From: an uncultured Candidatus Melainabacteria bacterium
GTDB taxonomy: Bacteria; Cyanobacteriota; Vampirovibrionia; Gastranaerophilales; Gastranaerophilaceae
Direction of reading: 5' to 3'
Assembly: GCA_949741915.1 (NCBI GenBank)
Contig: CATJOM010000080.1
Coordinates: 1 to 64,000, forward strand
Length of the DNA: 64,000 nt
How positions within the stretch are numbered: the stretch's first letter is position 1; each line of letters opens with the position of its first letter. Position numbers and translations under genes: made by a program. The notes under the pieces were generated by a model. That model was not told the DNA's origin and did not search any database. It worked only from the letters and a program-made list of their open reading frames with translations. This document shows, in pieces, positions 73-64,000 of the stretch.

Positions 73-192
73 TATATTCACTTCCGCCAGGGGGCGGGGT
101 GAAGAGTATTTAATGGTGCAGTCGTGCCCGCAATTAAATAAAAATCCAAAGTTATCTGATAATTAGCAAATTTTACGATAAACAATTTCTCG

Positions 193-56874: not shown

Positions 56875-58419
56875 TTATTTTAAAATTTCTTCCATCGCCT
56901 TATTTAATGTAATTCTTGCTGTTCTTTGCGGCGCTGCAATGGATGTACCTGATAATGGTTTTTTAAACTGCAAAACAGGAATAACAAAACCATCTTTTGT
57001 TATTTGAGCCGGAGTATCTCCTAAAAAATAAGCCGTATTCGGGCTAATGCTTGATGTTTTTGTATCCTGTACAAGTTCTTTGCATTTATCATATAGGTTG
57101 ATGCATACATTTATACCATTGTCCTGTTTTGATAAATCTTCTCTTAATCTGTTTTTGAAATATTCAATAATATTTTTTTGTTCTTTATCTATGATTTTTC
57201 CATCGAATTTTTTGCAATTTTGGCAAAATTGCAAGTCGCTTATTTCGCCTGTTGAATATTGATTAAGTAATTCAAGATATTCCTGAATCTCTTGTTTGGT
57301 TGTAATTAATTCTTTATAATTTTTTCCTGCCCAATTCGCATATGGTGTATCATTGTAGGATATATCGGCTCCTTTTTGTCCTGTTATATTGACTCCATCA
57401 GCAGTTGCTTTTAAAGTAACTGCCCCTATTTCAAAATGGGGCGTAAATGCTCTTGAAGCCGAATAGTCTGCTATTTTAGCATCCCCGCTTAGGGCACCAA
57501 CTATAGTGCAGCCTTCTATGCCTGAAAAAAGACTTAGCTTTTCTTTCTTTTTATTTCCTGCAGCAAAAACAACCTCTGTGCCCGAAGATATTATCTCCTC
57601 GATTAATTTTCTTTGTTCATTTATTTTTTCAATGGAGCTATTTGTGCCGGAATACTCTTGCAGGGAGTCTATAATTTTTTTGCTTGCAGAGTATGATGCG
57701 ATTATTTCTTTACTGTGAGGTACTTTGCTTCTTAATAGACCCCTGTATGCTTTTGTAAGATTTGTTTCATCTCCAAATGAACAGTTTAGGGCATCTATTG
57801 TTTCACCGTCTTGAATTCTTTTCAGTATTTCTTTTAGCGCCTCTATTGTCTCTGTTTTATTGGTGCAATTAATAGCTTCGATATCAGCTATCGGGTTATT
57901 CCTTTCGATAAATTTTGTTATAATGGCGCCATGGGTTCCGGCAACTTCTCCTATACTGCAAGGTAAACTGTTTTGAAAATCATCCAAAACAACAATTTTT
58001 TTGGGTGCAATATTTGTTTCTGTGACAACTTCTCCTGCTTTATTTAATATTCTTACAAGCTTTGTGCCATCCGGATTGTCACCCTTCTTGATTATTGTAT
58101 ATATTTGTCCACTGTTTGGGTCTATCCAACTTATCCATTTATTAACCATATTTGCTGCATTGGATGCAATTAGCTTAGCATCTTCTTTACAAGCTGCTTT
58201 TGGTGTTTCCGTCATTCCCTTTCCAATGCCATTTAGGGCAGCAAGATTCATAGCGCGTATTTTTTGCCCTTTTTCTGTTTTAAAGAGCTTTTCAAAGAAT
58301 GGATTTGACAAGGGTCTTGCTTTATCCGCAACTTTTATTTCAAGGTTGCTAAATGTTTGATTTATGAGTTCAACTTTTTTAATATGTGATACAACTTTGG
58401 CGTTTACAATGTTTGACAT
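56875..58419 (-). CDS. Cytoplasmic subtilisin-like S8 protease, copy 1
   Basis: A 514-residue protein with a ~135-residue N-terminal helical domain, then a subtilase core: catalytic Asp in KIVVLDD (~146), His in GTHGAI (~163), the oxyanion Asn region FAAGNKK, and Ser in SGTSIAAP (~493). No signal peptide, so cytosolic or exported by another route. The His-to-Ser spacing is enlarged by inserted Lys/Glu-rich segments (~375-460). Tandem duplicate of the next gene (58508). Substrate unknown; proximity to the lectin-like cassette array may or may not be meaningful. Confidence 0.8.
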   Translation of the reverse strand: MSNIVNAKVVSHIKKVELINQTFSNLEIKVADKARPLSNPFFEKLFKTEKGQKIRAMNLAALNGIGKGMTETPKAACKEDAKLIASNAANMVNKWISWIDPNSGQIYTIIKKGDNPDGTKLVRILNKAGEVVTETNIAPKKIVVLDDFQNSLPCSIGEVAGTHGAIITKFIERNNPIADIEAINCTNKTETIEALKEILKRIQDGETIDALNCSFGDETNLTKAYRGLLRSKVPHSKEIIASYSASKKIIDSLQEYSGTNSSIEKINEQRKLIEEIISSGTEVVFAAGNKKKEKLSLFSGIEGCTIVGALSGDAKIADYSASRAFTPHFEIGAVTLKATADGVNITGQKGADISYNDTPYANWAGKNYKELITTKQEIQEYLELLNQYSTGEISDLQFCQNCKKFDGKIIDKEQKNIIEYFKNRLREDLSKQDNGINVCINLYDKCKELVQDTKTSSISPNTAYFLGDTPAQITKDGFVIPVLQFKKPLSGTSIAAPQRTARITLNKAMEEILK

Positions 58420-58507: not shown

Positions 58508-60043
58508 TTATTCTTCCAGTAGCTCTTTCATTGCTTTGTTGAGAACTATTTTTGCTGTCCTTGCGGGCGCAGCGAATGATGTGCCATTAAAAGATGAATC
58601 TGTATCGAGATTAAAACAACTCAAGTGTGGTAACAGGGTTCCGTCTTTTGTGATTTCAAATGTATAATGGGCATCTCCGAGATTTTGGGCTGCATCTTTG
58701 ATTTTATTTATATCGCCATCTTTAATTTTAGTTGCGCCATCTAAACTATTTATGTTTAGGCTATCTTCTTTGTTTAATTTGAATATTATCTCATTAGTGC
58801 ACCTTGAAATGTCACGCTTCTGCTCATCATCCATTATTTTGTTTTCAAACTTTTTACAAGCTTTCCTAAAGTCTTCCTCGCTCAACCTGTATTCCATATA
58901 ATCTTTGTATAAATTCAAATATTCAAGGCAGTCTTCTCTTGTTGCAAGACAATCTTTGGCTTTTTTGCCTGTAAGTTTAAGTGCCGCGCCTTTGTACGAT
59001 ATATCTGCACCTGGCAAACCTGTTATGTTTATTCCTTCGGCTAATATCTTTGGTCTATACTGACAAAGTTCTAAATGCTTAGTAAAAGCTCTTGATGCTG
59101 AACCTGTATACATTTTTCCCATGGAATTAAGCCCGCCCACAACATCCATACCATCAATACAACTGTTGAGATTAAAAGTATCTGCACCTTTATTTCCTGC
59201 TATAAACACAACCTGTACACCTTCTGAAATTAGGGATTTGAATTTTTCATATTTTGAAATTTTTTCCTTGTCATCCTCTGCTATTTTTTTTGCTACTGTA
59301 TATGAAGTAAGTATTTTGCCTTCATCATATGTTTTATTAATTTTTGTTGTTAATCCGGGTTTGTAATCGGTGCTGAATGAGCAATTTATGACGTCAATTT
59401 TTTCTCCTGCCTTTATTCTTTTTAATAAATCGTCAAGGGCACTTTTTAATTTGCTATCGTCCATACGGCCTTTTATAGTACTATCACTAACATCGATACT
59501 TTCTATATCTGCTATTGGATTATTTCTTTCTGCAATTTTTTGCACCATGTCGCCATGGCTTCCTACGGTGCATGTTATATCGCTACAAGCATCTTTTTTG
59601 AAAATATCCAAAACCACTATCTTTTTTGGAACAACATTTTTTTCTGTAACAACTTCGCCTGCTTCGTTTAATACTCTTACCGTTCTTGTGCTATCAGGAT
59701 TATCACCTTTATTTATTATTGTATATGATTTTCCGCTCTTTGGGCTAACCCAGCTTACCCATTTCTTTACCATTTCTGCTTCGTTTGAAGCTAACAACTT
59801 AATATCTTCAGGAGCAAGTGCTTTTGGTCTTTCTGTAACTCCCTTTTTAATACCGTTTAAGGCGGCTAAATTCATAGCCCTTGCTTCTTTGCCTGCTTCT
59901 GTTCGAAAGAATTTCTGCAGCATGGGATTCGCCAAAGGTCTTACTTTGTCTTCTGCTTTTATTCCTAATTCGGTTAACAATTCATTAATTAGTTTGGTTT
60001 TTTCAACATGCGCTGTAATTTTAGTACTGACCCCGTTTAGCAT
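58508..60043 (-). CDS. Cytoplasmic subtilisin-like S8 protease, copy 2
   Basis: A 511-residue paralogue of copy 1 (N-terminal NLAALNGIKKGVTERPKA block, MVKKWVSWV..SGKSYTIINKGDNPD, and the triad VVLD, GSHGD, NGTSFAAP all match). ATG 60043 is chosen because AGGAAA precedes it and it aligns with the start of copy 1; 17 further residues upstream lack support. Both copies keep a complete triad. They are separated by 88 bp and transcribed in the same direction as the cassettes. Confidence 0.8.
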   Translation of the reverse strand: MLNGVSTKITAHVEKTKLINELLTELGIKAEDKVRPLANPMLQKFFRTEAGKEARAMNLAALNGIKKGVTERPKALAPEDIKLLASNEAEMVKKWVSWVSPKSGKSYTIINKGDNPDSTRTVRVLNEAGEVVTEKNVVPKKIVVLDIFKKDACSDITCTVGSHGDMVQKIAERNNPIADIESIDVSDSTIKGRMDDSKLKSALDDLLKRIKAGEKIDVINCSFSTDYKPGLTTKINKTYDEGKILTSYTVAKKIAEDDKEKISKYEKFKSLISEGVQVVFIAGNKGADTFNLNSCIDGMDVVGGLNSMGKMYTGSASRAFTKHLELCQYRPKILAEGINITGLPGADISYKGAALKLTGKKAKDCLATREDCLEYLNLYKDYMEYRLSEEDFRKACKKFENKIMDDEQKRDISRCTNEIIFKLNKEDSLNINSLDGATKIKDGDINKIKDAAQNLGDAHYTFEITKDGTLLPHLSCFNLDTDSSFNGTSFAAPARTAKIVLNKAMKELLEE

Positions 60044-60380
60044 AATGTTTCCTGTTTTTATTGTTAATATTTTACAACCTAATAAAAACAGCACCAGGTT
60101 TAAAATTGTCTATGATAAATATAATGTTTTTACATTTTGTAATAATTTAAAACTGCAATTAGGGATTATTGAAAGACTATGGTTTTGTTTTATGTAGAAA
60201 GATAATTTATTATGTGTTTTCTATATGTAGAGACTTTTATTGTAAGAAAAATGTAATTAATATTTTGTATAAAAATTACATATAATTGCCTTGGTTTATT
60301 TAAATCCATAAAGACACAGTGCAATACGGTCTAGAGTCACGAGTGACTTTGCCGCCATACATGTAAAATATAAAATACTA
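60044..60380. other. Gene-free interval before the cassette array
   Basis: About 340 bp of AT-rich sequence containing no gene or terminator that I recognise, apart from the 3' tail of the first cassette ORF (to 60337). Confidence 0.5.
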
Positions 60381-60612
60381 ACAGCAAAAAGCGCACCGAA
60401 AAGGCATAAGAAGCAGGACAGTAACCAGTGCCGCAAGCCTGGTAAAACTTAATACTGCTACCGTTAAACTCGGGCGAGTAATATACGCCGCTTGACTGAG
60501 CTGAGCCTGACCACGCTATGTACGGGTAGCAGTTGGTTTCTGCTGCACCCGCACAGCCGCCAGGGTGCCAATTGCACTGCACAGAGCCTGCAGAACCAGC
60601 GTCGCACAGCTG
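60381..60612 (-). pseudogene. Cassette 1 (LCD box to SVRF end)
   Basis: Full-length core. Opens LQLCDAGSAGSVQC and reads NCYPYIAWSGSAQSSGVYY...GTGYCPASYAFSVRF. The 3' box is altered: the usual Cys after SVR is Phe because the TGT codon is TTT. Tail LLLVFYILHVWRQSHS then stop at ~60337. Confidence 0.6.
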
Positions 60613-60767
60613 TAAGTATCTATACTACAGAATTTTATATGTTTTTATGTCAAAGTATTGAATTTGAACGTGAAAGTATTGTACTGCAAGTGTTTTAGAA
60701 TACATCAATGTTTAAGAAATTCGTAAAGTAAATATTCTTGCATATTCAATGTTATAAATAATACTTA

Positions 60768-60982
60768 AATCCATGGACACAGCGCACCGAAAAGGCATAA
60801 GTAGAAACAAAGGCATTAGTATAGTTGAATCCGCCGCTTATCAACTGTCCTGCATAATAGTCGCTGCTGCTATACAGTCTACTGCTCCACATGTCGAACG
60901 GGTTGCAGTTGCCATTTACAGAGCCCGCACAGCCGCCTGTTTCGTTGCACCGCACAGAGGCTGCCGGCTGATAGTCGCACAG
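60768..60982 (-). pseudogene. Cassette 2
   Basis: Opens WLCDYQPAASVRCNETGGCAG, ends TYAFSVRCVHGFKYYL and stop. The middle (NPFDMWSSRLYSSSDYY...) differs strongly from cassettes 1 and 6-8. The upstream codon before LCD is not the common LQ, so its 5' border is slightly altered. Confidence 0.6.
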
Positions 60983-61134
60983 CCATTCAACTCTGGTTTT
61001 AGACAGAACATATGCTGCTTGTTATTATGATGTTTGTTGTCAAAATTCTAAAATGAGTTGAAATTTTGTCTTTAAAAATGGAGTTTTGCTTGCTATTTTA
61101 ATCGCGGGTTTCAAAATACGTTATAACAGTACAT

Positions 61135-61360
61135 AAATCCAAGGACACAGCGCACCGAAAAGGCAATAGTACTTGGACATCTGCCAGTGCCATCACAGGT
61201 TTCGTTATTAAAATGTGAATTGTTCATATGAAATGCCTGAAAATAGCCACTGTCGCGAGGTATGCCTGACCACATGTTATTTGGGTAGCAGTTGCCTGTC
61301 CACCCTGTATTAACAGCGGCGCCCGCACAGCCGCCCAGACCACTGCACTGCACAGAGCTT
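61135..61360 (-). pseudogene. Cassette 3, 5' box lost
   Basis: Homology starts at SVQCSGLGGCAG; the LCD segment is replaced by unrelated sequence (RLIS). Contains the longer NTGWTGNCYPNNMWSG form shared with cassette 5, and ends GRCPSTIAFSVRCVLGFMYCYNVF stop. Confidence 0.6.
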
Positions 61361-61645
61361 ATCAGTCTCTATGCCGTAGATGCCAGCAAAGCATCTTTAG
61401 CTTGGTGTGTGAGCTATAACATTCGTAATGCCAACTAAACCTTATCTCGATTGTTATAGGTAGTCATTATGATTTTTAAGGCTATTATGAGCGAGCTTAT
61501 AGAAAGTTACAGGTTTATCTATAAGGTTCTGCAAAGTTCTTTATATGGCTGCATTACAAGCTTGACTTTGTCAATTTTTTTAATGCGATAGTGGCCGTAT
61601 ATGTGCGAATGTTATAGTATTGTATTTAGGGGTATTTAATTATCG

Positions 61646-61867
61646 TAAATCCACATAGACACAGCGCACCGAAAAGGCGTTGGTGTCAAGATACATACCG
61701 GAGCCAATATTGCCTGTGTTAAGATACCCTCTGTCGTGGTAGCCGTCTGTTCCTGGAGTGTACAGCCAGAAAGTGTCCGGGTTGCAGTTGCTGTTTGCAG
61801 AGCCTGTACAGCCGCCACCCAGGTTGCCGCACCGCACAGAGCCTCCGCTGCTGCCATCGCACAGCTG
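61646..61867 (-). pseudogene. Cassette 4
   Basis: Opens KLQLCDGSSGGSVRCGNLGGGCTGSANSNCNPD and ends DTNAFSVRCVYVDLR stop. The GCGTGYCP-type Cys pair near the 3' end is missing here, as in cassette 2. Confidence 0.6.
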
Positions 61868-62000
61868 TAACTTTAGTGCTGCGCATAGGTGTTTTGAGTA
61901 TGCTTGACAACAAGTGAAATTAGATCTAGCCAAAGGCCTTAATGTTTTTATATACAGATAAAATTGTGAGTAATCTAATATTTAACCTATGAAAGTAATT

Positions 62001-62261
62001 CAAAACCAGGACACAGCGCACCGAAAAGGCAAGGGCACCGGGGCAGCCGCTCCCTGAAGCATAACAGTTGTCGTCTACTAGGCTTCCATTGTTCAAATAT
62101 CCTGTGTGAAAGACAAAGCTTCCGTATGAGGGAGAAGAAGAGGCTGACCATATACTGCGCGGGTAGCAGTTGCCTGTCCATTCTGTATTAGCAGCAGCGC
62201 CCGCACAGCCGCCACCCTCAAGACACCGCACAGAGCCTGCTGCGTATTTGTCGCACAGCTG
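62001..62261 (-). pseudogene. Cassette 5
   Basis: The longest core: QLSQLCDKYAAGSVRCLEGGGCAGAA, the NTEWTGNCYPRSIW form, and NCYASGSGCPGALAFSVRCVLVLNYF. A GTG could open a 120-codon frame, but it has no ribosome-binding site. Confidence 0.6.
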
Positions 62262-62454
62262 AGAAAGCTGTGGGTATTGAGCTAGCACAGTTATAGCATG
62301 CTTGTCAGGGTGTGTGCTATACTTGCTCTTTAGTATATAGAATCAATAAATCAAGAGTATAAGTCAGCAGGAGTCACAAAGAGATACATATAAGCCTGAG
62401 CTCTATGGTTATTTACATGGTAGAGTAGAGTGATTTTGGATTTGGAGACATAAT

Positions 62455-62691
62455 CAAAACCAGGACACAGCGCACCGAAAAGGTATAGGTAGCAGGGCAG
62501 TAACCTGTACCGCAAGCTCCATACATATTGATAGCTCCATTGTTTAAGTTTGGAGCCCAGAACACGCTGCTAGACTGCGCACTGCCTGTCCATACATGGT
62601 TCGGGTAGCAGTTGCTATTTGCTGAGCCCGCACAGCCGCCACCCAGGTTGTCGCATCGCACAGAGCCTGCAGCTAATTTGTCGCACAGCTG
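62455..62691 (-). pseudogene. Cassette 6
   Basis: LQLCDKLAAGSVRCDNLGGGCAG, NSNCYPNHVWTGSAQSSSVFW, ACGTGYCPATYTFSVRCVLVLIM. A TAA lies nine codons upstream of LCD in the same frame, so no start can be used. Shares the CCTGGTTTTGA 3' border with cassettes 5, 7 and 8. Confidence 0.65.
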
Positions 62692-63020
62692 TAAACCATA
62701 TGGTTCTTACGCAGTTTGTTCCAGCATTGTAATTAAAGAGTCTTATTGCAACCCGATAACTGGTATTTTAATGTAGCTATGTATGGTTATTGTTTTGTCT
62801 GCTGATTTCCGTAATACACAAAGAGCTGCTTTGTTGTTATTTTAAATGGATTTTGTCATGGTGGCTGGTGTACGCGGATATTATTGTTTTTTTATGGTCT
62901 TGCTTTGGTTTTAAAATCATTTGTGTATTATTAAAACTAATATAGTATTATTTTGGTTGATATATAAAGTTGTGTGATTAAATGCAATCTTTTTATCTTT
63001 GGTTTTCCATAAAAGTATTT

Positions 63021-63249
63021 CAAAACCAGGACACAGCGCACCGAAAATGCAAGAGAAACTGGGCAGTAACCGGTACCGCAAGCACCATGCAAACTGACGC
63101 TTCCGCCATTCAGGTAAGGAGACCAATACACTCCGCTTGACTGTGCTGAGCTTGACCATGCAATGTTCGGGTAGCAGTTGTTAGCCCATTCTGTACCTAC
63201 TGCGGCGCCCGCGCAGCCGCTCCATAATTCGCCGCACCGCACAGAGCCT
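63021..63249 (-). pseudogene. Cassette 7, 5' box lost
   Basis: Homology begins at GSVRCGELWSGCAG; LCD is absent (upstream reads YHIKLV). The middle NCYPNIAWSSSAQSSGVYW and ACGTGYCPVSLAFSVRCVLVLKYF match cassettes 1 and 6 closely, with the AFSVRC box carrying an A-to-T change in the plus-strand sequence (AAAATGC). Confidence 0.6.
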
Positions 63250-63773
63250 ACCAACTTTATGTGATACGCATTAGTGTGGATGCTACTATCTTGGGCCATT
63301 GTGGGTTTACAGCTTTTATTGACCTTCTGTTTCTTGTCTTGAATAAGACATGGTTGGAAGTCTGCACTATCTTTCTTTTTCTCTTCGGAGCACAATAATG
63401 GTTACTTTGGACTCAGAAGGCCGGTGCGTGGGCATAAAAGGTAAACAGCGCATAGCCTCTATCTGTCAAAATCTTGATGTTGTACGAACCAAATGTCTTT
63501 TGGAGGGTAAAATTGCCTCCCGTTTTATTGTAAAATTTGACATTCGACAATATACTGGGCAAAATGGCACAACTGCCTTTAAATTCCTCAGAGTGCTTTC
63601 TTTGGTTAACTTTTTATTTAAGCACTGTGTATGATTATGTTGTATGTAGCGCACATGGGCACAGAGTAGGGTGTCAGCTTTTCTAATGCAAGCCTCTGCT
63701 GAACATATAATCCATGGCTTTCAACAACTATAGCCGCAATTTTTGCGTATTTTGCTATGTTGAAAACTATATT

Positions 63774-64000
63774 CAAAACCAGGACACAGCGCACCGAAAA
63801 GCCACGACTCGCAGGACAAAAACCACTATTGCAAGCCCCTGTAGTGTTGATACTGCCGCCATTTAAGTTTGGAACAGCATATGTATCTGAACTTGTGGTA
63901 CCTGTCCACACGTGGTTTGGGTAGCAGGTAGGGTCTGCAGCGCCCGCACAGCCACCACCCAGATTTCCGCACCGCACAGAGCCTGCAGCATTGATGTCGC
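63774..64000 (-). pseudogene. Cassette 8 (cut by window end)
   Basis: Reads ...INAAGSVRCGNLGGGCAGAADPTCYPNHVW...ACNSGFCPASRGFSVRCVLVLNIVF. The core continues to the last base, where GTCGC is the beginning of the usual GTCGCACAGCTG box; the expressed gene or further cassettes may follow. Confidence 0.55.

Follow-up and report, generated by a model that had tools for sequence, protein, structure and literature searches.

A silent cassette library that probably descends from a DGR template and feeds one prepilin-type gene in a Melainabacteria bacterium

Diversity-generating retroelements (DGRs) and silent-cassette systems have been viewed as surface-variation strategies that were invented separately. 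A DGR of the Bordetella phage BPP-1 type comprises a reverse transcriptase (RT), Avd, a template repeat (TR) and a variable region (VR); for BPP-1 itself, the IMH is where the 3' end integrates, and at the 5' end 8 bp of homology are enough (PMC3240598). In some DGRs one RT serves several templates or targets: that of Pseudomonas costantinii has 6 TRs and 91 TR-VR pairs (PMC6642488), and for Treponema denticola multiple TRs were reported within single individuals (PMC4891356). In vls/vlsE of Borrelia, pilS/pilE of Neisseria and the tprK donor sites of Treponema, arrays of promoterless donors that keep their coding frame serve one expressed gene, in which exact segmental mosaics are found.

The locus described here shares features with each of these. 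As in a DGR, an RT and Avd lie beside a target whose variable segment falls in a DUF1566/Lcl_C-like domain with a fixed end border; related RTs have adenine-mutagenized TR/VR pairs, and the cassettes are homologues of TRs. It differs from a DGR in that the RT locus has no TR, that there are about 125 pre-diversified templates for one main target (31 in the related genome G001 and at least 31 in G161), and that donor adenines are seldom changed, variation coming mostly from template choice and mixing. The multi-TR/multi-VR DGRs have few TRs for many VRs, or variation between strains, whereas here the ratio is reversed and the templates stand in arrays. With vls, pilS and tprK it has in common the promoterless, in-frame donor arrays, the exact mosaics in one expressed gene and a target with a pilin-type N terminus, but its cassettes are far more divergent and spread over about 12 loci, its donors appear to descend from a retroelement template, and a DGR RT and Avd are present at the expression site. 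It seems that a hypermutating retroelement has here become a system for shuffling gene cassettes. No description of such TR arrays, and no paper treating DGRs together with Melainabacteria, was found in the literature searched.

The window, that is, the whole stretch of 64,000 nucleotides that was analyzed, lies on contig C80 of a fragmented assembly of 126 contigs (the window genome, G000). At 60379-64000 it carries eight open cassettes on the minus strand, each about 215 to 260 bp long and without a promoter:

60379-60609, minus strand: silent cassette 1, LCDAGSAGSVQC...YAFSVR, with the 3' border TTCGGTGCGC at 60391-60400
60767-60983, minus strand: silent cassette 2, traced donor for the expressed gene on C26
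61135-61362, minus strand: silent cassette 3, with the short form of the 5' border, beginning at SSVQC
61652-61864, minus strand: silent cassette 4, 88% identical over 156 bp to cassette C95:33383
62001-62258, minus strand: silent cassette 5, longest of the eight (86 codons)
62455-62688, minus strand: silent cassette 6, strongest match to the profile (4e-40)
63021-63254, minus strand: silent cassette 7, profile match
63774-64000, minus strand: silent cassette 8, extending to contig position 64004 and followed by five more cassettes to C80:65935
63782-63801, minus strand: example of the 3' border, CTTTTCGGTGCGCTGTGTCC, a candidate IMH*-type site

This candidate site is common to the expressed gene described below and the 3' ends of the other seven window cassettes. 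The original prediction of eight open cores on one strand was borne out, as all eight were located. The number of promoter-like matches was near chance (14 versus 8.8 expected). The extent that it gave the array was correct for the window but too short, since the array continues past 64000 on C80 to a total of 13 cassettes. The 3' tails, which had been called unrelated, are not all so: TGTGTCCTGG(T/A)TTTGA is repeated 3' of several cassettes of the array. The GC content was 52% in cassette cores, 40% in spacers and 35% in the window. Adjoining the cassette array (56875-58419 and 58508-60094, minus strand) are tandem paralogues with a GTS(I/F)AAP serine-protease-like motif, and a related frame was also present on C26 (L044:9690-10679). 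Exact copies of a further element, CGAGAAATTGTTTATC, were found in the window (177-192, minus strand) and close to the intergenic stretch between RT and target in both the window genome and G001 (L105 near 5967 and 6224; L165 near the VP stop).

A profile of the eight cassettes gave 129 matches in the whole genome (best E value, 4e-40). Silent cassettes number about 125, in about 12 arrays (on C80, C47, C57, C22, C95, C88, C35, C66, C102, C20 and C45), and within any one array all are on the same strand. Stop-free silent cores made up 115 of 126, compared with an average of 8 of 126 after shuffling, and the 3' border core TTCGGTGCGC occurred 111 times in the genome, compared with once for the reversed control. 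The codons of this border were fixed (TCG in 110, GTG in 110 and CGC in 105 of 111 cassettes), and because TCG serves for only 36 of the 658 serines inside cassettes, the border is constrained as DNA. The 3' border CTTTTCGGTGCGCTG was invariant; the 5' border was looser, with an optional CAGCTGTGCGAC followed by TCTGTGCGGTGC. No conserved cassette flank able to act as an Sp RNA element was found in the window genome, and a search of IMG/VR for the 3' border returned none. Comparisons among the silent cassettes showed only a modest adenine bias, and fresh DGR mutagenesis was therefore rejected as the source of their divergence. C66 and C63 (L038, L045) both start in the 3' half of one cassette, over 144 bp with 2 mismatches, none at A, reflecting either a recent duplication or an assembly branch, and a decayed target paralogue with stop codons (L091, C88:28064-30342) has retained the border TTCGGTGCGC.

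The cassette profile also matched a long frame at the end of C26 encoding a glycine-rich, prepilin-like protein with the motif FSLVEMLMALLVASLLLAALAPVMTKKF, in which the prepilin motif is followed by a cysteine-rich domain and then by the variable segment LQLCD...SVRC. The C-terminal half of this gene was located at the end of C118 through similarity to the intact paralogues on C48 and C68. The two contig ends share 36 bp (the 3' border plus CAGGATACAGTTTCTACAT), yet hold different cassettes. Given this overlap, together with one unpaired 5' half and one unpaired 3' half, we infer that they belong to one gene, of which at least two alleles would then be present in the assembly. The prepilin cleavage/methylation motif at the N terminus of the target is FSLVEMLMALLVASLLLAALAP. 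Pfam N_methyl reached its cutoff in the C68 paralogue and in the relative G098 and fell below it in G001; a match on the window genome's own expressed gene was not reported. Scores for Lcl_C (formerly DUF1566) were all below the Pfam cutoff, at 26 bits for the G098 target and 19 bits for the target domain of the window genome, and a solved-structure profile search with this domain returned nothing. By family membership the predicted target domain is DUF1566/Lcl_C-like, of the C-type-lectin type, and the expressed copy encodes a predicted prepilin-anchored, glycine-rich surface protein. Glycine-rich prepilin-like genes form a large family in G000 (C35, C39, C42, C58, C65, C67-C69, C71, C79, C91, C95, C97, C107, C114, C116 and other contigs), which is poorly assembled because many contigs break at the common N-terminal motif FSLVEMLMALLVASLLLAALAPVMTKK.

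The expressed variable region is a mosaic of several donors packed into 165 bp. In the C26 allele, 37 bp in the 5' part are identical to window positions 60947-60983 in cassette 2, 64 bp to C95:28443-28506 and 59 bp to C35:29154-29212, and a short stretch has its best match at C47:1536 with one A>T change. In the C118 allele, 56 bp are identical to C47:436-491, with one A>C change just before. We consider it very likely that the cassettes constitute a functional donor library for the one expressed gene.

The window genome has a single RVT_1 match (61 bits), which is on C118 and oriented convergently to the expressed gene; Avd is directly upstream of the RT both there and in G001 (Pfam bAvd, 46.3 bits, cutoff 40). 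The best solved relative of the RT was 8ub7 chain A (E value of 1e-36), which we take to be the Bordetella phage DGR RT, and the predicted enzyme is of the DGR type. Unlike the target, the RT (dN of 0.18 with synonymous sites saturated) and Avd (dN of 0.07 versus dS of 2.3) are under purifying selection. The positions R74 and I181, presumably the adenine-selectivity residues of bRT, are conserved in the window-genome RT, so a change in them was rejected as the cause of the low mutation load described below. DNA comparison on the RT contigs revealed no TR near the RT with adenine-specific VR mismatches, either on C118 (18 kb) or on C171 of G001; run on 36 control loci from IMG/VR, the same script detected pairs in 28, and it also did so in several relatives. 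Genome-wide searches with cassette-type and viral-type profiles for a hidden canonical viral-type VR/TR in the window genome or G001 recovered cassettes only, plus one chance-level match. A hairpin 3' of the variable region was not clear in the window genome; G001 has one with a 5-bp stem.

These results bear on the original prediction of a reservoir recombining into one expressed gene. Donors and an expressed copy with exact donor segments are indeed present, and the full gene that it looked for, with LCD...AFSVRC in its 3' third, corresponds to the prepilin-type gene on C26/C118, outside the window, whose variable segment runs from LQLCD to SVRC. A purely vls/pilS-like reading, made where no RT had been seen, is not supported, since the genome's single RVT_1 match adjoins that gene with Avd, likewise outside the window, and the cassettes are TR homologues. 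Its remark on the C-type lectin-like fold of DGR targets was the right lead.

G001 (CANSKM010000171.1), a metagenome assembly from the same genus, has the same RT, Avd and target layout with 31 cassettes. Its RT is also the sole RVT_1 match and adjoins the expressed gene, and its contig breaks fall at the same variable region. Its silent cassette C158 is reproduced exactly at both ends of the expressed region.

The closest RT relatives in IMG/VR reached 49% identity across most of the RT and have canonical TR/VR pairs that differ almost solely at TR adenines. In an order-wide sample, this RT was present in 39 of 286 genomes, and in several of these (RT 54 to 66% identical) a TR and a prepilin-type target accompany it at the locus. 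TRs in genera g33 and g34 are full-length homologues of the window cassettes; the TR/VR pairs of G171 (197 bp) and G209 (217 bp) had 21 of 22 and 19 of 20 mismatches, respectively, at adenines. In G161, at least 31 tandem cassettes (C1:341283-349764) lie beside Avd, the RT and the target, with a conserved spacer that resembles the TR 3' flank of G171 and G098. The expressed variable region of G161 equals cassette C1:348475 over about 200 bp save for two substitutions, both A>T; a second pilin-type target in G161 gave no match to the array. G161 is thus an intermediate between a canonical DGR and a dispersed cassette library. The homology of the sister TRs and this intermediate identify the cassettes as amplified DGR templates, and there is little doubt that the library is DGR derived. 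Among the RT-bearing genomes tested, cassette-like sequences were limited to g1, g34 and g33, bar one marginal match in g10. In g33 and g34, most among the matches listed fell within long frames, one or two templates standing against many targets; g1 and G161 have the opposite ratio. One lineage spans canonical DGRs (G171, G098), a locus with two TRs (G142), a DGR with 31 tandem cassettes (G161) and dispersed libraries of 31 (G001) and about 125 (window genome) cassettes, so that the steps from a hypermutator to a stored repertoire can be directly compared.

Our preferred reading, which we hold to be probable, is that a silent library of at least 125 cassettes, amplified from a DGR TR, feeds one prepilin-type gene via RT and Avd. 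A TR would have been amplified into silent template cassettes, whose RNA would be reverse transcribed by the RT/Avd complex; the cDNA would enter at the invariant 3' border (IMH) and its 5' end would be resolved wherever short homology exists. Mosaics would be the product of successive transfers, and new changes would enter through an occasional adenine error. When expressed regions were compared with their donors, pooling four expressed alleles from fragmented assemblies of three genomes and leaving out a one-base deletion at the G161 border, mismatches were seen at 4 of the 99 adenines and at none of the 423 remaining bases (p = 0.0012), which points to copying by an adenine-error-prone RT with a low error rate. 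Some of these mismatches could be explained by donors missing from the assembly. A fixed 3' and a loose 5' border are what 3'-anchored retrohoming would leave (PMC3240598). It is evenly balanced whether the retroelement has gone from mutator to copier, reading more than 100 RNA templates and copying into a single surface gene those that are selected or recombined.

The same library could instead be used by DNA-to-DNA gene conversion of the RecA type, with the RT and Avd acting separately on the gene or for rare adenine mutations. Conversion also yields exact multi-donor mosaics such as those within 165 bp, the donors stand intact alongside their copies, the window genome has no conserved Sp-like flank, and about 95 of the 99 donor adenines are unchanged, far below the adenine error of Bordetella bRT of about 30 to 50% (PMC12875486). 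The unchanged adenines, the missing flank and the lack of a clear hairpin 3' of the window genome's variable region count against transfer by the RT. Against conversion, each of the four mismatches is at a donor adenine, RecA needs neither the 3'/5' border asymmetry nor a codon-fixed 3' border, and the RT and Avd are strongly conserved despite the absence of a TR in cis. We regard conversion as a tentative alternative of some weight, and RT-dependent transfer, slightly favored over it, as having about an even chance. That the arrays are mainly an archive, storing past variants copied out of the expressed gene, appears unlikely: window-genome and G161 cassettes are adenine poor like VRs (AAY codons 4%, versus 7% in VRs and 24% in TRs), but those of G001 are still TR-like (14.5%), and in G161 the direction reads from cassette to gene because the gene's mismatches are changes of donor A and it keeps its own downstream border. 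Decay of duplicated lectin-domain genes into pseudogene debris would account for the stops in 11 of 126 cores and for some truncated cassettes, yet it is highly improbable given the open frames, the borders fixed at the codon level, the exact cassette copies inside the expressed gene, the recent cassette-to-gene transfer that was seen, and the repetition of the pattern in three species.

Three minor observations concern the relatives. In G161 (L242:10609-11832) and G171 (L240:6249-7469), a one-base frameshift in the target gene coincides precisely with the 3' border, where GGTCGCTGTG stands in place of GGTTCGCTGTG, and the G098 target is in frame; the frameshift is possibly an off-state from imprecise integration. 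G096 gave 59 cassette-profile matches, many among the matches listed being in long frames, and it possibly has one TR for dozens of target genes, a mirror of the window genome. Within the same family, G008 (L157) has a canonical TR/VR-bearing DGR whose surroundings are different and phage-like.
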